From: Mycobacterium sherrisii
Lineage (GTDB): Bacteria > Actinomycetota > Actinomycetes > Mycobacteriales > Mycobacteriaceae
Assembly: GCF_002102355.1 (NCBI RefSeq)
Contig: NZ_LQPT01000090.1
Location: 1-39,988, forward strand
Direction: 5' to 3'
DNA: 39,988 nucleotides
Below are positions 2,532 through 17,371 of the stretch, one piece after another. The translations under genes were made by a program, and so were the position numbers. The notes under the pieces were generated by a model. That model worked only from the letters and a program-made list of their open reading frames with translations. It did not search any database and was not told the DNA's origin. How positions within the stretch are numbered: the first letter of the stretch is position 1; each line of letters starts with the position of its first letter.

Positions 2532-4505
2532 TTAAAAGCGTCCGCCGCCGCCCATCAAGCCGCCGCCGGACGAGTTCGAGGAGCCGCCGAACGACGTCGG
2601 GCTCCAGCCGCCGAACCCGCCGCGCAGTCCGCCGCCGAGCAGGTCGCCGATGATAATCCCGCCGATCAGTGCGCTGGCGTCGCCGTTGCCGCGGCGGGTG
2701 TAGGCCTGTTCCGCCGCGACCACATCGGCGTTGGCCCGCGATTGCGCGTCGGCCGCCAGCGTGGACGCCGCGGTCGCGTGCGCGATCGCCTCGGCCGGGT
2801 CGGTCGATTGTGTGGCCCGCGCCGCCTCCAGGTGGCGCTGCGCCTCGGCGAGCCGCGTGCGGGCCTCGGGTCCGACGCTGCCGCGCCGGGTGTCGACGTA
2901 GTCCGAAACGCTGCGCACCCGCGACTCGGCGGTGAACAACGCCTGGTCCAGCGACCGTCGCAGCCGGTCGGCGTCGGCCCGCTCCTGGGCCAGGGTGGCC
3001 AGCAGCCGGTCGAGGTCGGCCGCGGCTTTGGCCAGCCGAGCGAAGGTGCCCAGCGGATCGCTGGAGCCCTCGGTGGCGGCGTCGGTGGCGGCGGTGCCGG
3101 CGGCGTCGCGGGCGGCGACGAGTTGGTCACGGTGGGCGGCGTGGGCGTCCAGTGTTTGCAACTGCTCGGCGGCGTGCGCAATGGCGGAGTTGACGTCGGC
3201 GATCAGCGACGGCAGCGCCGCGACGGCATGCCGGATGTCGTTGGCCGCGTTGTCCACCGAATCCAGCAGTGCGCGTGCCTGCCCGAGCGCCGACTCGGTG
3301 GCACGCACCACGTCCACCAAACCACCCTGCTGCCCGCTGACCGGGGTGCTTGCCAGGGTGCGCGCTGAGCCGATGGTGCGGTCGGCGAAGGCCAGCCGCT
3401 CCTTGGCGGTGTTGATGTTGTTCGACACCGAAGTCAGTGCAGCAGCACCGAATTCGGTGTTCAGCTGGGCGAGTCGCTGCGCGGCCGGCTCGATCCGGGC
3501 GGTGAGCTCGACGAGTTGCTGGGTCAGGGCGTCGACCCGGGTTTCGGCGTTGACCACCAGATCCCGCAGCCCTTCGAACGCCGCGGTCTGGGCATCCAAT
3601 TCACGGTCGGCGCTGGCCGCCGACACGATCACCTGGGTCAGCAGCTGGCGGCGCTGCGCCGGCACCTCGGGAATGGCGTCATCGAGCTGTTGACGCACGG
3701 TAAATGCTTGGGACAGTGCGATTTTCGCGTTGTCGACGGCCCGGGTGAACGGCTGGGTCCGCTCTGCGCCGAACTCGTCGACCGCCAGCGCCAACTCGTT
3801 GGCGCTGGTGCGAACCGCGTTGTCGACGTCGACCACCATGGCGCGGGACAGCTCGTCTAGGATGTCCAGCGGCACCGCGGCCAGCGCGGTCGGGTCGGTG
3901 GGGTCCACGCGCCGCGCGGCCGCCAGTTGGGCGGCCCGGCGTCGCCGGCTGCGGTAGCGCATCACCAAGAGCAGCGCCACCAGGGCGACGACGATCACGG
4001 CGAGGGCGACCAGTAGCCACACTGGGCTCGACGACTTCGGTGTCGCGTTGAGCCCGTCCGCCGCGGCGACCGCGGCGCCGCTGAAGTTCCCGTCGCGCAG
4101 CGCGGGTTCGATCCGGTTCTGGCGCAGGTCGTCAACCTGGTTGCTGGTAACGCTTTTGACCCCGGAGGGCACCAGAAAGGCATACGCGCGCCCGGTGGTG
4201 GCGACCGCCAGCAGCGCGTCATAGGTGCCCAAATCGCTTTCGTGGATGGTGCGCTGCGCCCAGCTGACCGCGTTCTGGCCGGAGAAGTCCTCGACGTAGA
4301 CCACCCACAGGCGGATGTGGCGGTCGTTGTAGAGCCGGTCGATCGCGGAGTTCACCGCGGCACGTCCGGAGACCGACAGCGCGCCGGCGTCGTCGGTGAC
4401 ATACCCGGGCAGCCGGAACGGCGGCTGCGCGCCGGCCGAGGGCGCCAGCAGCCCCCCGGTGAGGAGCACGGTCAGGGCCACGCCGAAAAGTCGGGCAGTA
4501 CGCAT
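2532..4505 (-). CDS. TPM-domain membrane protein (Rv2345-like)
   Basis: This 657-aa protein has a signal peptide (residues 1-26, ending AGA). A TPM domain (about 30-150) follows, then one transmembrane helix (about 162-183) followed by a basic RSRRRR stop-transfer stretch. A long Ala/Arg/Glu/Gln-rich, probably coiled-coil cytoplasmic region (about 200-600) and a Gly-rich tail ending GGGGRF complete it. TPM domains occur in envelope proteins and in thylakoid acid phosphatase-like proteins; the substrate in mycobacteria is unknown. Length and neighbours match Rv2345 of M. tuberculosis. It diverges from dgt. A TAGATT -10-like box (4516-4511) ends five bases before the ATG, suggesting a nearly leaderless transcript. 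Confidence 0.9.
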   Translation of the reverse strand: MRTARLFGVALTVLLTGGLLAPSAGAQPPFRLPGYVTDDAGALSVSGRAAVNSAIDRLYNDRHIRLWVVYVEDFSGQNAVSWAQRTIHESDLGTYDALLAVATTGRAYAFLVPSGVKSVTSNQVDDLRQNRIEPALRDGNFSGAAVAAADGLNATPKSSSPVWLLVALAVIVVALVALLLVMRYRSRRRRAAQLAAARRVDPTDPTALAAVPLDILDELSRAMVVDVDNAVRTSANELALAVDEFGAERTQPFTRAVDNAKIALSQAFTVRQQLDDAIPEVPAQRRQLLTQVIVSAASADRELDAQTAAFEGLRDLVVNAETRVDALTQQLVELTARIEPAAQRLAQLNTEFGAAALTSVSNNINTAKERLAFADRTIGSARTLASTPVSGQQGGLVDVVRATESALGQARALLDSVDNAANDIRHAVAALPSLIADVNSAIAHAAEQLQTLDAHAAHRDQLVAARDAAGTAATDAATEGSSDPLGTFARLAKAAADLDRLLATLAQERADADRLRRSLDQALFTAESRVRSVSDYVDTRRGSVGPEARTRLAEAQRHLEAARATQSTDPAEAIAHATAASTLAADAQSRANADVVAAEQAYTRRGNGDASALIGGIIIGDLLGGGLRGGFGGWSPTSFGGSSNSSGGGLMGGGGRF

Positions 4506-8963: not shown

Positions 8964-9036
<73 letters not shown>

Positions 9037-9062
9037 CAGGCATCGGCGCAGCACGGTCGCCA

Positions 9063-9283
9063 GTGACGGCAACGGACGTGCTCGCCGATCACGGCGGCTT
9101 GGTGAACACCTTCGACGCCGCCATCCGCGCCGGATACCCGCGGGAAGTGCCCCGCGCCGACTACCTGCCGCTGCCGGCGCTCTTGCGACGCCGCTTGACC
9201 CACCACTTTCGGCCTCGGTCGAGCTGGAGCGCGTGCCGCACCGGCTCGCCGCGATCAGCGAATTCGGCCGCCAGCCCGAGTGA
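9063..9283 (+). pseudogene. DUF3349 protein, frameshifted and internally deleted
   Basis: From GTG 9063 the translation gives a typical DUF3349 N-terminus: a short helix, then AGYPREVPRADYLPLPALLRRRLT. Right after RRLT the resemblance stops in that frame. A C-terminal-like piece (VELERVPHRLAAISEFG) continues in another frame to a TGA at 9281-9283. The usual middle part beginning DDEV is missing, so a deletion plus frameshift is the simplest reading. DUF3349 proteins are small actinobacterial proteins of unknown function. It starts 26 bases after the tRNA. Confidence 0.6.
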
Positions 9284-9295
9284 TTGGCGTGTCCG

Positions 9296-9730
9296 TCAGT
9301 CGTCGATGACGGCGAGTCCCCGCCGTTGCAGGTCGGCCAGGCGCGCGCGCATGGCGTCGACCTGTTCGACCGGATGCCCGACCCAGTCGGTGATTTCGCC
9401 GACGACGCGCACCGGCTCCCGGGTGCGGTAGGACCGCGTGGGATTGCCGGGGAATTTCTTGTCGGTGACGTTCGGGTCGTCCTCCAGCGCGCCCTCGGGT
9501 ACCACGATGTAGATGCGGCCCCGGCCCGATCCGCTGGCCAGCTCGGCGCCCCACACCGCCGCGTCCAACGTCCGCGTCACGTACACGTGGTTCGCGATCC
9601 GGCCCGCGGCGTAATTGGATCGGCGCCCGGGCACCAGCAGAGCACCGATCGCCAAATCGGCTTTGGTGCCGTGCAACAGCGCACCCGACTCATGGATTTC
9701 GAAGGGTTTCGGCGCGCCGGTCACGACCAC
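9296..9730 (-). CDS. arr: rifamycin NAD+ ADP-ribosyltransferase (Arr)
   Basis: This 144-aa cytoplasmic enzyme transfers ADP-ribose from NAD+ to the C23 hydroxyl of rifamycins and so inactivates them. It closely matches Arr of M. smegmatis over its whole length. The residues equivalent to the catalytic set are present: H20 (LHGTKA), Y50 (NHVYVT) and D85 (EDDPNVTDKK). The NPTRSYRTREPV block is also intact. The start is GTG 9730 or GTG 9724. It lies 65 bases downstream of cysE on the same strand and next to tRNA-Asn and a decayed gene, a spot that differs between species. H37Rv lacks arr. Confidence 0.93.
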   Translation of the reverse strand: MVVTGAPKPFEIHESGALLHGTKADLAIGALLVPGRRSNYAAGRIANHVYVTRTLDAAVWGAELASGSGRGRIYIVVPEGALEDDPNVTDKKFPGNPTRSYRTREPVRVVGEITDWVGHPVEQVDAMRARLADLQRRGLAVIDD

Positions 9731-9795
9731 TCGCCCAAGACGTCAAACACCTTGATTGCCAAAGCTTTTCCCTAGGCGCAGCGACGTAGCCAACG

Positions 9796-10476
9796 TCAGA
9801 TGGAGAAGTCCTCGCCGTGCCACACTCCGGCCTTGGGCAGTCGGATCACCCTACCGTTTTGCGGGCTGTCGCTTTGTGCCTCCAGTCGCGCCACCCGGGT
9901 GAGTAGGGACTGCAGGCTGACGCCCACCAAGTCGGGCAGTGAATCGTCCTCGCCGGCCGGTCCGGTGCGGCTGACGATCTGACCGGGCACCCCCACAACC
10001 ACGCTGCTCGACGGAACTTCTTTGACCACAACGGCATTGGCGCCGACACGGCTGTCGTCACCGATCTTGATCGGCCCGAGCACCTTGGCCCCGGCCCCGA
10101 TGATGACGCGATCGCCGATGGTGGGATGCCGTTTGCCCGGATCCGTGCTGATGCCACCGAGCGTCACACCGTGGTAAATCGTGACGTCGTCCCCGATTTC
10201 GGCGGTCTCGCCGATCACCACGCCGGTGGCGTGATCGATGAACAGGCCGTTGCCCAGCACCGCACCGGGGTGTATCTCCACCCCGGTGCTGATGCGGTTG
10301 AATTCGGCGACCACCCGGGCCAGGACGCGAAAGCCGCGGTGCCACAGCCAACGACTGATTCGGTGGCCCCAGATGGCATGCACACCCGGGTAGGCGAAGA
10401 TGACCTGCAGCGCCGATGGCCGGGCCGGATCGCGATCCATTGCCGCCCGAATGTCCCGCCGGATCGCTGCCAGCAT
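9796..10476 (-). CDS. cysE: serine O-acetyltransferase
   Basis: This 226-aa enzyme makes O-acetylserine from serine and acetyl-CoA, the first step of cysteine synthesis. The N-terminal helical part ([18 protein letters not shown]) is followed by the left-handed beta-helix of hexapeptide repeats (about residues 65-160). That helix carries the family signature [16 protein letters not shown] and the active-site YHGVTLGG. The Gly/Pro turn [10 protein letters not shown] and a longer C-terminal tail follow. ATG 10476 comes two bases after the cysK stop, so translation is probably coupled. It corresponds to Rv2335. With cysK it matches the srpG-srpH genes that accompany the cyanobacterial Family 2A encapsulin srpI. 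Confidence 0.96.
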
Positions 10477-10478
10477 CG

Positions 10479-11420
10479 TTACTCCGTCACGTTGCCGAAA
10501 AGTGGTGTGCTCAAATACCGTTCGCCGAAGTCGGGCAGCACCACCACGATGAGCTTGCCGGCGTTCTCCGGTCGGCGTGCCACCTGCAGGGCGGCCACCA
10601 CGGCCGCCCCCGAGGAGATGCCGACCAGCAGGCCTTCTTCGCGGGCCAACCGGCGCGCCAAGGTGATCGAGTCCTCGTTGCCGACGGCGATGACCTCGTC
10701 GACCAGATCCAGATCGAGCACCGGCGGAATGAAACCGGCCCCGAGTCCCTGAATCGGGTGCGGACCCTTCTGACCGCCCGACAACACCGGCGACGCGGCC
10801 GGCTCGACTGCCACGAATTGGACCGAGGGCTTGCGTTCCTTGATGACCTGGGCGACGCCGGTGATGGTTCCGCCGGTGCCGACGCCCGAAACGAAGATGT
10901 CGATCTTCCCGTCGGTGTCGCGCCACACCTCTTCGGCCGTGGTCTTACGGTGGATCGCCGGGTTGGCCGGGTTTTCGAATTGCTGAGGAATGAAATAGCG
11001 CTGATCCGACTTGGCCAGTTCCTCGGCCTTGGCGATGGCGCCGGGCATGCCCTCGGGTCCGGGGGTCAGCACCAGCTCGGCGCCCAGCGCCCGCAGCAGC
11101 TTGCGCCGCTCGATGCTCATCGTCTCCGGCATGGTCAGCACGATCCGATAACCCCGGGCGGCCGCGACCATCGCCAGCGCGATCCCGGTGTTACCGCTGG
11201 TCGGCTCGAGGATTACGGTGTCCGGCCTGATCAGGCCCGCCTCCTCTGCCGCGTCGATCAACGCCACGCCGAGCCGGTCTTTCACGCTCGCGGCGGGGTT
11301 GAAGGACTCCAGCTTGGCGACGACGTCGGCTCCGGCTCCGTCGGTGACCCGGTTCAACCGGACCAGCGGGGTGTTTCCGATCAGTTGCGTGATGTTCTCA
11401 GCGATGGTCACAGTCGCCAT
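10479..11420 (-). CDS. cysK: O-acetylserine sulfhydrylase (cysteine synthase)
   Basis: This 313-aa PLP enzyme makes cysteine from O-acetylserine and sulfide. PLP lysine K47 sits in NPAASVKDR. The substrate loop PTSGNTG and the phosphate-binding [11 protein letters not shown] loop are both present. The sequence follows Mtb CysK1 (Rv2334) throughout. The start ATG 11420 ([15 protein letters not shown]) is preferred over a GTG-like upstream frame start because it matches family starts. It overlaps the last 23 bases of the upstream thioester-domain gene and is followed two bases later by cysE, so the three probably form one operon. Confidence 0.97.
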
Positions 11421-12678
11421 TCCAGCGAATGTCGAACTGGATTGCAACGTCAGCGGGCACCGCTAGCGCGACCGGAGTGAACTGTTCCGGCGCGTCGGGC
11501 GCCACGCCGGCCAGCACCCGACCGGCCAGGCGGCGCGACGTCGTCGCGGTCACCGTCGCTGCCGCGGAGCCCGGCGCCGGGCGGAGGTAGAAGTCGGTGC
11601 CTGGGCCGATGGTCCCGTCGAGGTGGAAACCGTCGGCGTCGACCAGGGCATGACCGTCGGCTACGTTGAGCGACAACGGGGTTCGCACCTGAAACGGACC
11701 GATCAGCTCGGGGGTGACGACGGCCTGGGTGTCGACGAGCGTGACATCGTCGGTTTTCGGATCGGTGTCCGGGCCGCACCGCAGTGCCCCGGAGAGCAAG
11801 TAGTTGTACAGGTGCACGATGCGGTCGGCGTTGCGGTAGTGGCGCGTACCGGTCAGCCAGAAGTCCACATGGCCGATCTGTGGCGTCACGCCGGCTTCCG
11901 TTTCGGCGACGAGGCGGTAATACCGGTAGCCGCGGCCGCGGTGGCCGTGGCTGCTGCTCGACAACGTACTGCCGATTCCCAGCGCGCGTTGGTAGCGTCC
12001 CATGGTCGGGCCGGTCGTCAGTCGCGATCCGGAAACATCTTGCCAGTCAACACCATTCGCGGATTTTTGTAGCCACATGGTGACGGCGCTGTCGGCCTCG
12101 GTCCATACCGAGTAGCCGCCCAGCTGTGGCCGGCCGTCGAATTCGAAGGTGATAACCGGACCTCGTGCCCGCTGCACGGCGACCGGCACGTGCAACGGCT
12201 GGGTATCCAGGGCCAGGCCGTTGGTCAAATACCAAATCGCCGCCTGGGTGGCCGCAATGGCTTCGTGTTCCTCGATATTGCCGGTTCCTAACGGGTAGCC
12301 GGCCCGACGCAGTCGCCGACTCAATTCGGCGGTGCTGTTCAGCGGATACGAATGGCGCAGAATCCAATCCACTTCGGCTTCATAGTCGCGATTGCGCAGA
12401 TGCTCGAGCGCGGACCAGCTGCCCAGCCGATACCGCGACGGCAAATGCGGTGCGATGCCGCTGAAATTCAGCGAGTAGGCGCACAGCGTGGGATGCAGCC
12501 GAATCAGGTCGGTGCGCGCGGTGCTGCCGTCGGTGAACGCGATCTCCTCGACGGTGTGCGAGTAGGTGCCGCCGCGGTAGCGCGTCATTTGAGGCAGCTC
12601 GTTGGTGGGCAGCGCGACGAGACGCGGGCGGGTGGTCACCGGTGCGAGGGCACTCGGCGATAGCGACACAACAGTCAT
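11398..12678 (-). CDS. thioester-domain (TQXA-type) protein
   Basis: This 426-aa protein has the hallmarks of a TQXA/thioester domain: C66 in PTLCAYSLN and Q145 in [12 protein letters not shown]. In known thioester domains this Cys and Gln form an internal thioester that binds host proteins covalently. A beta-rich C-terminal half (about 170-426), with a [13 protein letters not shown] segment and [11 protein letters not shown], resembles the accompanying domains of actinobacterial TQXA proteins. Neither this start nor an upstream in-frame GTG (12726) gives a signal peptide, sortase motif or membrane helix, which is unusual for what are normally surface adhesins. ATG 12678 follows AGGAAG. It overlaps cysK by 23 bp and diverges from the encapsulin gene. 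Its position may correspond to Rv2336, but I am not sure of homology. Confidence 0.68.
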
Positions 12679-13044
12679 GAAAGGGTTGTTCTTCCTGCGA
12701 GATTTCGGCTGGGCGCGCCTCGACACGCGCGGGCGTGGCCCGCTGGCGAGAAAAAAGCGCGACGATTAGAACGTCAGAATTTGGCCGTCAGGAATCAACA
12801 ACAGCGACAACAGTCCACGGCAAGGCAGCGCGAAGGGATCAGGCGCAGCTGTGCGGCGTGGTGCATGCGACCACTATAGGGCAAGATTCTCGGTGGACTT
12901 CTTCGACTGACAACGTTAGCCACCAACAGATAAAATCTCGCTGAGTTTTACGCTTGCTACTGAGGCGGCGCAGCCCTCCAGGAGCAAGCTCTTACTATTT
13001 CGGCTCTCCATCCAGCCCAGCTATTCGACGACGGAAGGATCACG
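12679..13044. promoter_or_regulatory. divergent control region: thioester-domain/cys operon and encapsulin
   Basis: This is a 366-bp gene-free region between the divergent thioester-domain and encapsulin genes. It holds a convincing plus-strand promoter (12907-12936). A TATAGT -10-like box for the minus strand lies at 12878-12873. GGAAGG at 13033-13038 is the encapsulin ribosome binding site. No cysteine-rich upstream ORF was seen. Confidence 0.6.
12907..12936 (+). promoter_or_regulatory. sigma-A-like promoter of the encapsulin operon
   Basis: A -35 CTGACA (12907-12912), an 18-base spacer and a -10 TAAAAT (12931-12936) are near consensus. The predicted start at about 12943 leaves a leader of roughly 100 bases before the encapsulin ATG. 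Confidence 0.6.
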
Positions 13045-13980
13045 ATGACGGCAGCCAGCTCGGGGGCTCAAAACGAGTCTCAGGCACTCGGGGATCTCGG
13101 TGCCCGCCAGCTTGCGAACGCCACCAAGACGGTTCCGCAGCTCTCGACGATCACCCCCCGATGGTTGCTGCATCTGCTGAGCTGGGTGCCGGTCGAGGCC
13201 GGTATCTACCGGGTAAACCGCGTCGTCAACCCCGAACAGGTCGCCGTGACGGCCCAGGAGGGCGCCGCCCTGGACGCTCCGCTAGCGGAGACCTTCGTCG
13301 ACTACGAGACCAGCCCGCGCGAGTACACGCTGCGCACCATCTCGACGCTGCTCGACGTCAGTACCCGCGTCTCCGACCTGTACTCCAGCCCGCACGACCA
13401 GATCGCCCAGCAGCTGCGGCTGACCATCGAGACCATCAAGGAACGCCAGGAGTTCGAGCTGATCAACAGCCCCGAGTACGGGTTGCTGGCGCAGGCCCTT
13501 CCCGAGCAGACGATCCAGACGCTCGGTGGTGCACCCACCCCGGACGACCTGGACGCCTTGATCACCCGGGTGTGGAAGACGCCGAGCTTCTTTTTGACCC
13601 ACCCACAGGGCGTCGCCGCCTTCGGCCGCGAGTGCACCTACCGTGGGGTGCCGCCGGTCGTGGTCAGCCTGTTCGGCGCGCAATTCATCACCTGGCGCGG
13701 CATTCCGATCATTCCGTCGGACAAGGTGCCCGTCGAGGACGGCAAGACCAAGTTCATCCTGGTGCGCACCGGCGAGGAGCGCCAGGGCGTCGTCGGCCTG
13801 TTCCAGCCGGGGCTGGTCGGCGAGCAGGCGCCGGGCCTGTCGGTGCGATTCACCGGCATCAACCAGTCGGCGGTCGCCCGCTATTTGGTCACCTTGTACA
13901 CGTCCCTGGCTGTCCTCACGGACGATGCGCTCGCGGTCCTCGACGACGTGGCTGTGGACCAGTTCCATGAGTACAAGTGA
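13045..13980 (+). CDS. Family 2A encapsulin shell protein (35-kDa major membrane protein)
   Basis: This 311-aa protein is recognisable as the M. avium/M. leprae major membrane protein I (35-kDa antigen), now classed as a Family 2A encapsulin. It is an HK97-fold protein that self-assembles into a hollow icosahedral compartment in the cytoplasm. It has no signal peptide or membrane helix, consistent with a particle rather than a true membrane protein. It starts at ATG 13045 behind GGAAGG. The next gene, a cysteine desulfurase with a long disordered N-terminus, overlaps its stop by 14 bp and is the expected cargo. It lacks the cyclic-nucleotide-binding insertion of Family 2B shells. The shell is thought to store or control sulfur mobilised by its cargo. 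Confidence 0.93.
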   Translation: MTAASSGAQNESQALGDLGARQLANATKTVPQLSTITPRWLLHLLSWVPVEAGIYRVNRVVNPEQVAVTAQEGAALDAPLAETFVDYETSPREYTLRTISTLLDVSTRVSDLYSSPHDQIAQQLRLTIETIKERQEFELINSPEYGLLAQALPEQTIQTLGGAPTPDDLDALITRVWKTPSFFLTHPQGVAAFGRECTYRGVPPVVVSLFGAQFITWRGIPIIPSDKVPVEDGKTKFILVRTGEERQGVVGLFQPGLVGEQAPGLSVRFTGINQSAVARYLVTLYTSLAVLTDDALAVLDDVAVDQFHEYK

Positions 13981-15928
13981 GTACCGGTCGGTAGACGCCG
14001 AAAGCGACCTGCCCGTCAGCGCCGCCGAACTCGCTGCGTTGGCAACCCAGCTGTACGCGGCGAGCATCCGGCCCGGTCCGGACAGCCCGCCGCAGACCGC
14101 GCCGGTTGCCCCGCGCGGCAGCGTGCCGGACACCACGGCGGCGGCCTCGGCGGGACGGACGGCGGCCGGGGCGGCCGACCCCTTCCCGGCGACGGTGCCG
14201 CCCCTCGGCTTCGCCGACATCTACGTCCCGGCACCGGCATCCCCCGCGCCCGATGTGCCGCCGCAGACGGTGCCGGTCGCCCCGCGCGGCAGCGTGCCGG
14301 ACACGACGCCCGCGCCCTCGGCCGCCTGGACTACCGCCGGCGCGGCGGATCCCTACCTGCCGCCGGGTGTTGCCGACCTCAGCACGTTCGCGGTGCCGAG
14401 CGAAGGCATCGTCTCCACGCAGCCGGGCGTGCTGGCCGGGCCGACGACCCTGGCCGCGCCTGGCGGTTCGGGCGCGCCGCGCGGGTCGTCGCCCTACTCC
14501 GGGACCGACTGGCCGGCCGACGCCCCGCCGGTCGGTGATTTGGGTTGGTCGGACGCGGTGCCCGCCGCACCGGCCGCACTGGCCGCGCCCGCTGCCTTGG
14601 ACGAATACGACTACCACTTCCTGCCGCCGGCTTCGACGGCGGCCTCGGCAAGCGAGTGGCCGAATGCGGGCCCGGTGCCGCGGTCGGGCGGCGAGCACGA
14701 GGTCTTCGACGTCAACGCGGTGCGGGCGGACTTTCCGATCCTGACGGAGACCATCAACGGCAAGCCGCTGATTTGGTTCGACAACGCCGCGACCACGCAG
14801 AAGCCGCAGGTGGTCATCGACCGGTTGTCCTACTTTTACGCCCACGAGAACTCCAACATCCACCGGGCGGCACACGAATTGGCGGCGCGGTCGACCGATG
14901 CCTACGAAGAGGCGCGCGAGACCGTGCGGCGGTTCATTGGTGCACCGAAGGCCGAGCAGAACATTTTCGTGCGCGGAACCACCGAAGCGATCAATCTGGT
15001 GGCCTATGCGTGGGGCGGTAAGCATCTGGGGCCGGGTGACGAGATCGTCATCACCCATCTCGAACACCACGCCAATATCGTTCCGTGGCAACTTCTTTCG
15101 CAAAAGACAGGGGCAATCCTGAAGGTCGCGCCGGTCGACGAGGCCGGGAACCTGCTGCTCTCGGAGTTCGAGGATCTGTTGGGTCCGAAGACGAAGCTGG
15201 TGGCAGCGACTCAGGTGTCGAATGCGCTGGGCACCGTGACGCCGGTGGACAAGATCGTCGAACTCGGCCACCGCTACGGTGCCCGGGTGTTGATCGACGG
15301 CGCGCAATCGATTCCGCATCTGCCCATCGACGTGGGCGAACTTGGTGTCGACTTCTTCGTGTTCTCCGGACACAAGATCTACGGCCCCACCGGGATTGGC
15401 GTGCTGTACGGGCGGGAGGACGCGCTCGCCGAGACACCGCCGTGGCAGGGCGGTGGCAACATGATCGCCGACGTCACCCTGGAACGCTCGCTGTATCAGG
15501 GGCTGCCCAACAAGTTCGAGGCCGGCACCGGCAACATCGCCGACGCCGTCGGGCTGGGCGAGGCGCTGCGCTACGTCGAGCGGGTGGGTATCGAGCGCAT
15601 CGCGGCCTACGAGCACGCGCTGCTGGAGTACGCGACGCCGCGGCTGGCCGACATCCCCGGCGTCCGCCTGGTCGGCACCGCGGCGCAGAAGGCCAGCGTG
15701 CTGTCGTTCGTGCTGGCCGGCCACGAGCCGCTCGAGGTGGGCAAGGCGCTCAACTCCGAAGGCATCGCGGTTCGGGCCGGACATCATTGCGCCCAACCGA
15801 TTTTGCGCCGCTACGGCCTGGAGGCCACCGTCCGTCCGTCGTTCGCCTTCTACAACACGTTCGAGGAGATCGACGTGTTCCTTCGGGCGGTGCGCCGGAT
15901 CGCCGAGGGCGGGACCAACGTCGGCTGA
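13967..15928 (+). CDS. encapsulin cargo cysteine desulfurase (SufS/class II type)
   Basis: This 653-aa protein has two parts. Residues 1 to about 245 are low-complexity, Pro/Ala/Gly-rich and probably disordered; this is the cargo-loading region known to direct Family 2A desulfurases into the shell. It opens with a helix-like AAELAALATQLYAAS. The catalytic part (about 246-653) is a PLP class V aminotransferase fold: EHHANIV, DGAQSIPHLP, PLP lysine K470 (FSGHKIYGPTG), and catalytic C608 in AGHHCAQP, as in SufS. It removes sulfur from cysteine as an enzyme persulfide and releases alanine. ATG 13967 overlaps the encapsulin stop by 14 bp, indicating coupling. The loading region holds an imperfect 57-codon repeat (14087 and 14258). 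Confidence 0.94.
   Translation: MSTSEYRSVDAESDLPVSAAELAALATQLYAASIRPGPDSPPQTAPVAPRGSVPDTTAAASAGRTAAGAADPFPATVPPLGFADIYVPAPASPAPDVPPQTVPVAPRGSVPDTTPAPSAAWTTAGAADPYLPPGVADLSTFAVPSEGIVSTQPGVLAGPTTLAAPGGSGAPRGSSPYSGTDWPADAPPVGDLGWSDAVPAAPAALAAPAALDEYDYHFLPPASTAASASEWPNAGPVPRSGGEHEVFDVNAVRADFPILTETINGKPLIWFDNAATTQKPQVVIDRLSYFYAHENSNIHRAAHELAARSTDAYEEARETVRRFIGAPKAEQNIFVRGTTEAINLVAYAWGGKHLGPGDEIVITHLEHHANIVPWQLLSQKTGAILKVAPVDEAGNLLLSEFEDLLGPKTKLVAATQVSNALGTVTPVDKIVELGHRYGARVLIDGAQSIPHLPIDVGELGVDFFVFSGHKIYGPTGIGVLYGREDALAETPPWQGGGNMIADVTLERSLYQGLPNKFEAGTGNIADAVGLGEALRYVERVGIERIAAYEHALLEYATPRLADIPGVRLVGTAAQKASVLSFVLAGHEPLEVGKALNSEGIAVRAGHHCAQPILRRYGLEATVRPSFAFYNTFEEIDVFLRAVRRIAEGGTNVG
14087..14428 (+). 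repeat. two imperfect 57-codon repeats in the cargo-loading region
   Basis: Two copies start at 14087 and 14258 (171-bp period). Both begin PPQT(A/V)PVAPRGSVPDTT and pass through TAGAADP(F/Y). The first 34 or so residues match best, and the ends have diverged (ADIYVPAPAS against ADLSTFAVPSE). The nucleotide similarity implies a duplication within the gene. Confidence 0.8.
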
Positions 15929-16603
15929 CGTTCGAAACAGGCACGGGCCGAACGGCTTCGGGTCACCTTGAGCGCAACGCTTGTTCCGGCCCCGTCTGCT
16001 GCGAACTGTGAGGTTCGACGGCAATCGTCGCCGAATGGCCGGACGGGACGGTGACGTGGGCGCTGGGGTCACGGGACAGAGAAATTCGCCGCCAGGCGGA
16101 TTTCGTAGTCGCGGCGCACTTGGCGGACGCCGGATGCGCTTTATCGAATTGCGGAATCGCCGTCGAAACGACGACCTTTGGGCTGCGACGATTGTGCCCA
16201 ATGCGACGCCCGGGACGTTAGCTCGCAGCCGGCTCAGGCGGCTGCGTGCGCCACCTTCGAAAACCGTAAAGAGCCCCGCCGTGGTGTCCCCATAACGCAC
16301 CGCGCCGCGGCCGACGTTCACTCCCTCGCAGGTCGAAGACGTTCGGGAAGCCATGGTCGGCGCTGACGTCGACCGTGTCCGCGACCACCCCCCGGCGCGT
16401 TTCCATCTGATTGATTGCAACCCTGACGCCGGGCATCGGTTTGCCCGTAAATTGCGGCGATGTTCTATGCAGATCACCAGACGGTGCGGTCCACCTGTAA
16501 ACAACGCTGACCTTGTCAGGCCGGTTGAGTTAGCTACGCGTTAAAGATCCAAATTGGGGGACCGCATGCGCCTTATGGGCTGCCGCTTGTCCGGGCAGGT
16601 CCT
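15929..16603. other. 675-bp stretch with no recognised gene, upstream of the mce operon
   Basis: No open frame here resembles a known family. Two frames of 104 and 72 codons (15981-16295 plus; 16218-16436 minus) have skewed, shadow-like compositions. The last 100 bases are relatively AT-rich and likely hold the mce promoter, but I could not pick a well-spaced -35/-10 pair. The ribosome binding site is the AGG in GCAGGTCCT before ATG 16604. Confidence 0.5.
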
Positions 16604-17371
16604 ATGAACGGGTCCGCTGTCGCCCGGCCGATGAATGTGCTGGGGGAATTCTTCATGCTCAGCGCCGACGCATTGGTGACCACCCTGCGCCGGCCGTGGG
16701 CGTGGCGCGAAATCCTCGAGCAGATCTGGTTTGTCGCGCGGGTGTCGATCTTCCCGACGATCATGCTGTCGATCCCGTACACGGTGCTGATCGTCTTCGT
16801 GCTCAACATCTTGCTGGTCGAGATCGGCGCCGGGGACCTGTCCGGTGCCGGCGCCGGGCTGGCATCGGTGACCCAGGTCGGGCCGGTAGTCACCGCGATG
16901 GTCGTCTCGGGTGCCGGGTCGACCGCGATGTGCGCCGATCTGGGCGCGCGGACCATCCGCGAGGAAATCGACGCGATGAAGGTGATCGGCGTCAACCCCG
17001 TTCAGGCACTGGTGGTTCCACGCATCATTGCCGCCACCTTCGTCGCGGTGCTGTTGTACTCGGTGGTTGCGGTCACGGGGCTGACCGGAAGCTACGTCTT
17101 CGTGGTCTTCGTGCAGCACGTCACGCCCGGTGCCTTCATTGCCGGCATGACCCTGGTCACCGGCCTCCCGCAGGTTGTGATCTCGCTGATTAAGGCGACA
17201 CTGTTCGGCCTCTCCGCCGGCTTAATCGCTTGTTACAAGGGTTTGTCGGTGGGCGGCGGCCCCACCGGCGTCGGCAACGCGGTGAACGAGACCGTCGTGT
17301 TCTCATTCATGGCTCTATTCTTCATCAACATCGTGACCACCGCGCTCGGAGTGAAAGTGACTGCCAAATGA
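16604..17371 (+). CDS. yrbEA: YrbEA, MlaE-type permease subunit of an Mce transporter
   Basis: This 255-aa integral membrane protein is one of the two permease subunits that start every mce operon. It has about five hydrophobic segments and the conserved family core SGAGSTAMCADLG followed by REEIDAMKVIGVNP, which contacts the Mce ATPase (MceG, encoded elsewhere). Mce complexes move lipids such as fatty acids or sterols across the mycobacterial envelope; the substrate here is unknown. ATG 16604 follows an AGG eight bases upstream. Its stop overlaps the yrbEB start (ATGA). Confidence 0.95.
   Translation: MNGSAVARPMNVLGEFFMLSADALVTTLRRPWAWREILEQIWFVARVSIFPTIMLSIPYTVLIVFVLNILLVEIGAGDLSGAGAGLASVTQVGPVVTAMVVSGAGSTAMCADLGARTIREEIDAMKVIGVNPVQALVVPRIIAATFVAVLLYSVVAVTGLTGSYVFVVFVQHVTPGAFIAGMTLVTGLPQVVISLIKATLFGLSAGLIACYKGLSVGGGPTGVGNAVNETVVFSFMALFFINIVTTALGVKVTAK

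Follow-up and report, generated by a model that had tools for sequence, protein, structure and literature searches.

A Family 2A encapsulin locus of Mycobacterium sherrisii with an ML0840-family gene behind a polycysteine leader

Published accounts of Family 2A encapsulins (Nichols 2021, PMC8049743; Andreas and Giessen 2021, PMC8346489), cited here, like the other papers, for those portions of their text that were available, describe a shell, a cysteine desulfurase cargo, loading of the cargo through its disordered N-terminus and, in a cyanobacterium, induction by sulfur starvation. We compared with these systems a locus of Mycobacterium sherrisii within a stretch of DNA, hereafter the window, that forms a complete contig of 39988 bases in an assembly of 5.56 Mb. 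With the SrpI shell and CyD cargo of Synechococcus elongatus (Nichols 2021, PMC8049743) the locus shares the shell family, a SufS-type cargo with an extended N-terminus, adjacency of the two genes and a sulfur context; unlike that system, it adds a third conserved protein, a leader with cysteine codons and a 14-bp gene overlap. Homologues of the shell and desulfurase from close relatives are MAP2121c/MAP2120c of M. avium subsp. paratuberculosis and the 35-kDa antigen of M. leprae (PMC8049743). The products of MAP2121c and MAP2120c were found together in one complex (cited in PMC8049743), and the available text of that paper does not mention the MAP2122/ML0840 product, a relative of the third protein, together with the complex. 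According to the same paper, M. smegmatis also possesses the compartment. The explanation that we consider best overall, and probable, is that the locus combines a Family 2A encapsulin with a dedicated partner of the ML0840 family under a cysteine-responsive leader.

Leaderless, regulatory short open reading frames (ORFs) with Cys codons have reportedly been described in mycobacteria by Canestrari (2020), according to papers that cite that work. Seliverstov 2005 (PMC1262725) placed MAP2122 and ML0840 among the extra genes of cys operons behind a leader with a Cys run, reported no conserved hairpin in the Cys leaders and left their mode of action open, and Shell 2015 (PMC4633059) described cysteine-clustered upstream ORFs (uORFs) in mycobacteria. 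The published mycobacterial Cys leaders, which their available descriptions present as regulatory and leaderless, are like the one analysed here in consisting of a short ORF with terminal Cys codons. A further parallel is the LEU element of leuA (Seliverstov 2005, PMC1262725), in which a run of codons for the regulated amino acid likewise pairs with the downstream Shine-Dalgarno sequence, although the gene and the amino acid are different and LEU may also form a pseudoknot. The available text of PMC1262725, PMC4633059 and PMC4974804 (the last with no occurrence of the word encapsulin) makes no mention of encapsulin, of Shine-Dalgarno pairing for Cys leaders, or of a leader that persists without cysK. 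In the open-licence literature we found neither the tie of the leader to the encapsulin, nor its pairing with the Shine-Dalgarno sequence, nor the loss of a thioester Cys that is described below.

The third gene and its tie to the shell

The three genes around which the argument is built are the following.

13045..13980, plus strand: Family 2A encapsulin shell (SrpI / 35-kDa antigen type), 311 residues, matching NF041162 and PF19307 SrpI-like
13967..15928, plus strand: cargo, a SufS-type cysteine desulfurase, matching NF041166 and overlapping the shell gene by 14 bp
11398..12678, minus strand: member of the ML0840/MAP2122 family, thioester-domain-like, 426 residues, with a thioester-domain/TQXA match (the third gene and third protein below)

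That the locus encodes a Family 2A shell with its cysteine desulfurase cargo, a published kind of system, is almost certain. The sequence-only reading, an earlier annotation of this DNA, had placed a shell gene at 13045-13980 overlapping a SufS-type desulfurase gene by 14 bp, and the profile scores and the exact overlap bore this out. The shell scored 494.4 bits against NCBIfam NF041162 (family 2A encapsulin shell; cut-off 380) and 395.7 bits against the Family 2B model, below its cut-off of 400; its sole Pfam match was SrpI-like PF19307 (319.1 bits). The cargo scored 847.2 bits against NF041166 (family 2A encapsulin cargo cysteine desulfurase; cut-off 800). The long N-terminal extension claimed for the desulfurase was also found, the SufS match spanning residues 251-646 behind a Pro/Ala/Ser-rich region of about 245 residues, and such an extended region was present in all 61 aligned sequences. 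By eye only, the segments LAALATQLYAAS and YDYHFLPPAS look like two published cargo N-terminal motifs, LARLANEFFS and AASPYYFLDG (Nichols 2021, PMC8049743). The overlap of shell and cargo genes is exactly 14 bp, and an ATG permitting the same overlap occurs in 61/61 sequences, that of the window among them, for which a cargo start could be assigned (from the window and 64 loci, two loci without a cargo match and two without an assignable start were excluded); among possible starts our script favoured an ATG near the 14-bp overlap. The earlier interpretation is largely published knowledge; what is added here, and was absent from it, is a dedicated third gene and the cysteine-codon leader that precedes it.

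The third gene shows the tightest association with the shell. Its 426 codons lie between cysK and the shell gene, and its end overlaps the start of cysK by 23 bp. We surveyed 198 genomes of the genus, that of M. sherrisii included, of which 65 carried shell sequence (62 above the cut-off), using as query for the third gene an alignment of 23 homologues. A third-gene match was detected in 68 of the 198 genomes, namely in 65/65 with shell sequence and in 3/133 without. The neighbourhood set comprised 64 loci from 63 genomes, the window's own locus and genome G183, whose shell sequence consists of two scraps at contig ends, being left out; two loci with broken shells (L064 and L065) are among the 64. 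A divergent third gene adjoined the shell in 63/64 of these loci: in 33/33 with cysK/cysE behind the third gene, in 8/8 with cysK/cysE behind the cargo gene, and in 22/23 with neither. A reverse scan of named genomes, starting from the third protein and overlapping the first set, found 108 relatives, of which 80 were kept; 79 of the 80 have a divergent shell, and the 80th stops at a contig edge. The kept relatives include M. leprae and M. lepromatosis (3.27-Mb genomes), in both of which the third gene is open. Across 346 genomes of the phylum there were two full-length matches to the third protein, both within the genus, and nine weak ones.

In the three genomes with a match but no shell (G070, G089 and G139), the third gene is partial or in pieces. 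The remnants in G089 and G139 adjoin full-length matches to cysK and cysE, and a 41-residue scrap of shell is left in G089. These two genomes indicate that the third gene decays once the shell is gone, whereas cysteine synthesis can persist.

Several observations weigh against a strict tie. The remnant in G070 lies on a 4.1-kb contig of a 73%-complete assembly and says little. A second Family 2A shell-cargo locus in G098 (L052) lacks the third gene, cysK and cysE, and G098 carries the third gene at its other shell locus. In M. genavense (G076; L064 and L174) shell and cargo look broken and the third gene is open. A search of 348 genomes of the order gave two clear Family 2A loci outside the genus, neither of which has the third gene, cysK or cysE in its vicinity; one more genome, G519, exceeds the 2A cut-off only by the sum of adjacent pieces. 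L052 and the two loci outside the genus indicate that the compartment can exist without the third gene.

Family 2A loci that lack the third gene, one within the genus and others outside it, speak for a simpler account, namely that this is a plain known locus and that the third gene is a passenger sharing the divergent promoter region. The link between shell, cargo and cysE is already published, and no function is on record for the third gene. A passenger would not, however, be expected to co-occur with the shell in 65/65 genomes against three remnants in 133, to persist at loci whose cysK/cysE are missing or lie in another place, or to have an open reading frame in both M. leprae and M. lepromatosis, the second of which has a split cysK next to it. 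In addition, the ratio of nonsynonymous to synonymous substitution rates (dN/dS) was 0.06-0.23 in 9/10 close pairs, and 0.45 between M. leprae and M. lepromatosis, values that indicate purifying selection on the third gene. We regard the passenger account as improbable; to go by conservation and gene order, it is highly probable that the third protein and the encapsulin are functionally linked.

The polycysteine leader and the Shine-Dalgarno sequence

The elements ahead of the third gene are as follows.

12873..12878, minus strand: TATAGT, a -10-like element (TANNNT box) 6 bases ahead of the uORF ATG
12795..12866, minus strand: leaderless-looking polycysteine uORF of 23 codons ending DCCRCC, from its translation, with equivalents in 110/110 leaders
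12789..12803, minus strand: anti-Shine-Dalgarno stretch comprising the last two Cys codons, the stop codon and UUCCUG (UGUUGUUGAUUCCUG), from minimum free energy (MFE) pairing and duplex statistics
12685..12697, minus strand: CAGGAAGAACAAC, the Shine-Dalgarno stretch of the third gene, complementary to the uORF tail

The polycysteine uORF ends 116 nt upstream of the third gene. We examined 144 leaders (the window, the 63 loci with a third gene and 80 named loci), 110 of them distinct. In 142/144 a short ORF with a run of Cys codons precedes the third gene; the script left the start unassigned in L163 and L206, yet uORFs were seen in both. All 80 kept relatives from the reverse scan carry the uORF, and it is also present at loci without cysK and cysE. 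Shell, third gene and uORF are all seen, for instance, at locus L205 of M. neoaurum ATCC 25795. A TANNNT box lies within 14 nt of the uORF start in 110/110 leaders and ends 6-7 nt before it in 97/110, a spacing that fits the expectation for leaderless transcripts. Because candidate starts were selected partly by this box, a fair comparison needs controls scanned with the same detector: a uORF with a -10 element was detected in 110/110 leaders, in 0/110 opposite strands and in 2/1100 dinucleotide shuffles, and when the -10 element was not required the counts were 110/110, 14/110 and 35/1100, respectively. The alignment of 32 loci on the shell side showed no clear shared element, and an Rfam search of 9000-17000 returned nothing at E values up to 1. 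Ribosome profiling of M. abscessus in 2016 reported a ribosome-protected uORF before the TQXA-domain gene MAB_0219 (PMC4974804). If MAB_0219 is the same gene as the third gene, as we infer from the domain name, the available text of that study supports translation of the third-gene uORF.

Similar uORFs were also sought elsewhere. Twenty genomes, 12 without a shell and 8 with a shell but no adjacent cysK, were probed for cysK, and close copies (81-86%) were present in four. Two of these, both in shell-less genomes, had a polycysteine uORF 136 and 197 nt ahead of the cysK match; none was seen before the other two, one of which lies at a contig start. A search of the M. sherrisii genome for polycysteine ends gave mostly chance matches (73 and 71, against 70 and 55 in the control), and a uORF filter applied to 30 loci left the uORF of this locus, one on contig C73 and one weaker candidate. 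The C73 uORF (about 2796-2822, minus strand, overlapping L235/L236) is leaderless-looking, with a GTG start and the ending CCCRCCCSC, and precedes a membrane-protein-like ORF.

In the MFE fold of the window leader, UGUUGUUGAUUCCUG pairs with CAGGAAGAACAAC. The mean energy of the duplex between uORF tail and Shine-Dalgarno sequence over the 110 leaders was -17.5 kcal/mol, compared with -13.6 kcal/mol for other windows of the same leaders and -13.5 kcal/mol for shuffled targets; the true duplex was lower than the shuffled one in 100/110 leaders. When partners were swapped between species the mean was -16.3 kcal/mol, and 0/5000 permutations reached the true mean. At one base pair we counted C-G in 34, U-A in 36, C-A in 2 and U-G in 1 of 73 countable leaders, the remaining 37/110 lying outside the motif and not being counted; a 32-leader MAFFT alignment shifts the Shine-Dalgarno block between clades, and pairs were not counted on that alignment. 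The Cys codons of the uORFs are UGU 472 times and UGC 137 times in this GC-rich genus, a preference compatible with a role in pairing.

Not all of the evidence favours pairing. The neighbouring pair is a C-A mismatch in 7/73 leaders, the C-G and U-A forms are confined to one clade each, and within-clade partner swaps leave the pairing equally strong. The uORF tails of the TA clade form pairs of the same strength with Shine-Dalgarno sequences of the A clade, and true pairs beat the mean of swapped pairs in only 73/110 leaders. Because there is one form per clade and swaps within a clade are neutral, the covariation stems from few events and is supportive, not conclusive. Furthermore, the whole leader is no more stable than its shuffles (z -0.14), so that the argument rests on the specific helix.

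The same leader might instead act by transcription termination, Rho-dependent or intrinsic, with no masking of the Shine-Dalgarno sequence. Rho-dependent termination was proposed for such leaders by Seliverstov 2005 (PMC1262725), and the window leader contains a weak terminator-like hairpin with a U-run at 12776-12760 (minus strand). By eye, however, the U-run is present in just 4/32 aligned leaders (the window, L051, L055 and L060), and the Shine-Dalgarno pairing is stronger than in three controls; we consider termination rather doubtful. Taken by either route, masking or termination, cysteine-responsive attenuation of the third gene seems very likely, and Shine-Dalgarno masking would be its mode on a balance that tips moderately in its favour.

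A thioester-domain-like protein

Named relatives of the third protein carry mycobacterial labels in nearly all cases; the closest come from Mycobacterium sp. 1100029.7 (78%) and from M. montefiorense (77%). The M. leprae copy (434 residues) was taken to be ML0840 from the organism, the operon position and the length. The predicted fold is that of a thioester domain (TED), with a predicted CBM32/F5-8C-like insert at residues 163-277; a sequence search of the PDB with the family gave a best E value of only 0.34. At the position of the thioester-forming Cys in the [YFL]C motif the protein has Ser69, and this residue is Ser in 64/64 aligned third proteins; in distant homologues the position is occupied by [YF]C in 9/9 (four aligned residue by residue and five by the same motif line). 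With the Cys replaced in every aligned member, the third protein is, judging by its alignment, TED-like and not a thioester protein of the TED kind.

Three other residues were considered for the thioester and set aside. Alignment with the distant homologues places the Cys position at Ser69, which excludes Ala67, and Cys66 of the window protein occurs in 1/64 only. Gln145 of the TQAAIW segment is invariant in the third proteins; it was rejected as the thioester-forming Gln on the basis of PMC4450167. The TED adhesins SfbI and Cpa (PMC4450167) share the predicted fold and the TQxxW helix motif with the third protein, which differs from them in the Ser in place of the thioester Cys, the CBM32-like insert, a gene tied to an encapsulin, and a lack, by eye, of a signal peptide or LPXTG anchor (64 N-termini and 23 aligned C-termini inspected, respectively).

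Such a fold could also suggest a surface or secreted descendant of thioester-domain proteins that is induced by cysteine shortage and exported without a classical signal. A thioester-domain fold and a CBM32-like insert, both predicted here, are common in surface proteins, and ML0840, annotated as a hypothetical protein, raised T-cell responses in patients when it was tested as an antigen of M. leprae (PMC3040138). Export is nevertheless unlikely, given that the 64 N-termini show no hydrophobic signal by eye, that the thioester Cys is Ser in 64/64, and that the shell to which its gene is tied is cytosolic in described systems.

Cysteine synthesis genes and a proposed model

On the minus strand the ML0840-like gene is followed by cysK and then by cysE, the last two as follows.

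10479..11420, minus strand: cysK, cysteine synthase A (TIGR01139, 477.4 bits; cut-off 351)
9796..10476, minus strand: cysE, serine O-acetyltransferase (TIGR01172, 243.2 bits; cut-off 210.7)

These scores agree with the earlier assignment of cysK and cysE to the strand opposite shell and cargo. The broader claim, that cysteine synthesis is linked to the shell and that cysE/cysK should be enriched near Family 2A shells, was supported, though not as a universal link: shell-adjacent cysK and cysE matches were found in 41/64 mycobacterial loci, whereas 23/64 have neither, and the two loci outside Mycobacterium lack both nearby. The link is therefore weaker than that of the third gene to the shell (41/64 versus 63/64). 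In 33/64 loci cysK/cysE are divergent from the shell, as in the window, and in 8/64 they lie downstream of the cargo gene on its strand. Identity to the window enzymes is 61-63% for CysK and 54-57% for CysE in the downstream arrangement, compared with 79-92% and 74-84% in the divergent one (L041 left out). In M. lepromatosis (L041 / L165) cysK is split into two low-identity pieces and the cysE match is 45%, while shell, cargo and third gene match across their length. In a tree of the third protein (without L065) the divergent arrangement forms one clade and the downstream arrangement falls in another; the simplest account of this would be that cysteine synthesis joined the locus twice.

The sequence-only reading had likened the locus to the cyanobacterial srpG-srpH-srpI genes, which we take to encode CysK, CysE and the shell. 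The names srpG and srpH have no occurrence in the main text of Nichols 2021 (PMC8049743). Serine O-acetyltransferases and rhodaneses are the most enriched accessories of Family 2A operons according to Andreas and Giessen 2021 (PMC8346489), so that enrichment of cysE is not new. The label of a sulfur storage or mobilising compartment, given to the locus before, may be kept as compatible with what the available text of PMC8049743 and PMC8346489 describes.

The sequences flanking the locus contain other recognisable genes. Next to cysE is the rifampin ADP-ribosyltransferase gene arr (9296-9730, minus strand), which scored 197.7 bits against NF033144 (cut-off 130) and 244.4 bits against NF000318, slightly below the cut-off of 250; an arr match lies inside the fetched stretch in 5/64 relatives' loci (L045, L055 (partial), L058, L061 and L064). 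A tRNA-Asn (GTT) gene is located immediately ahead of arr (8964-9037, plus strand). Downstream of the encapsulin operon is an MlaE-type permease gene (16604-17371, plus strand; PF02405, 191 bits), whose surroundings presumably correspond to what is called a yrbE/mce cluster, which they resemble.

One could envisage the following sequence of events for a Family 2A encapsulin with an ML0840-family partner under a cysteine-responsive leader. Sulfur drawn from cysteine would be stored by the shell and its cargo. As long as Cys-tRNA is abundant, ribosomes would complete the uORF, its tail would pair with the Shine-Dalgarno sequence and the third gene would be off; under cysteine shortage, ribosomes would stall at the UGU codons, the pairing would be blocked and the third protein would be made. 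In the window genome CysK and CysE would be made along with it, from the same tightly packed string of genes. More tentatively, the third protein may work alongside the encapsulin in the cytosol, as a binding partner that forms no covalent bond and has no thioester, and may help to return compartment sulfur to cysteine, with CysE and CysK as the fixing enzymes. In favour of the model as a whole, Cys and Met together make up 0.5-1.6% of the five locus proteins versus 1.9-4.3% in 8/9 other window ORFs counted; counting against it, one other ORF (2532-4505) is as poor in sulfur as the locus proteins. A role of the third protein in mobilising compartment sulfur is possible but speculative. Similarly tentative is the fuller picture of a three-part machine of shell, desulfurase and cytosolic ML0840-family protein, switched on by cysteine starvation and returning sulfur to cysteine, in which the protein would descend from a covalent adhesin module and have given up its sulfur chemistry (Cys to Ser, possibly with an internal oxyester, possibly with none).

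A partner gene with a cysteine-codon leader and co-occurrence with the shell across a genus would offer a direct handle on how Family 2A compartments are used and when their sulfur is wanted, the leader suggesting the cell state in which the partner protein is wanted. ML0840, a hypothetical protein and leprosy antigen, gains a genomic setting, and if the proposal is true, the third protein would be a case of a thioester-domain fold reused without its chemistry.

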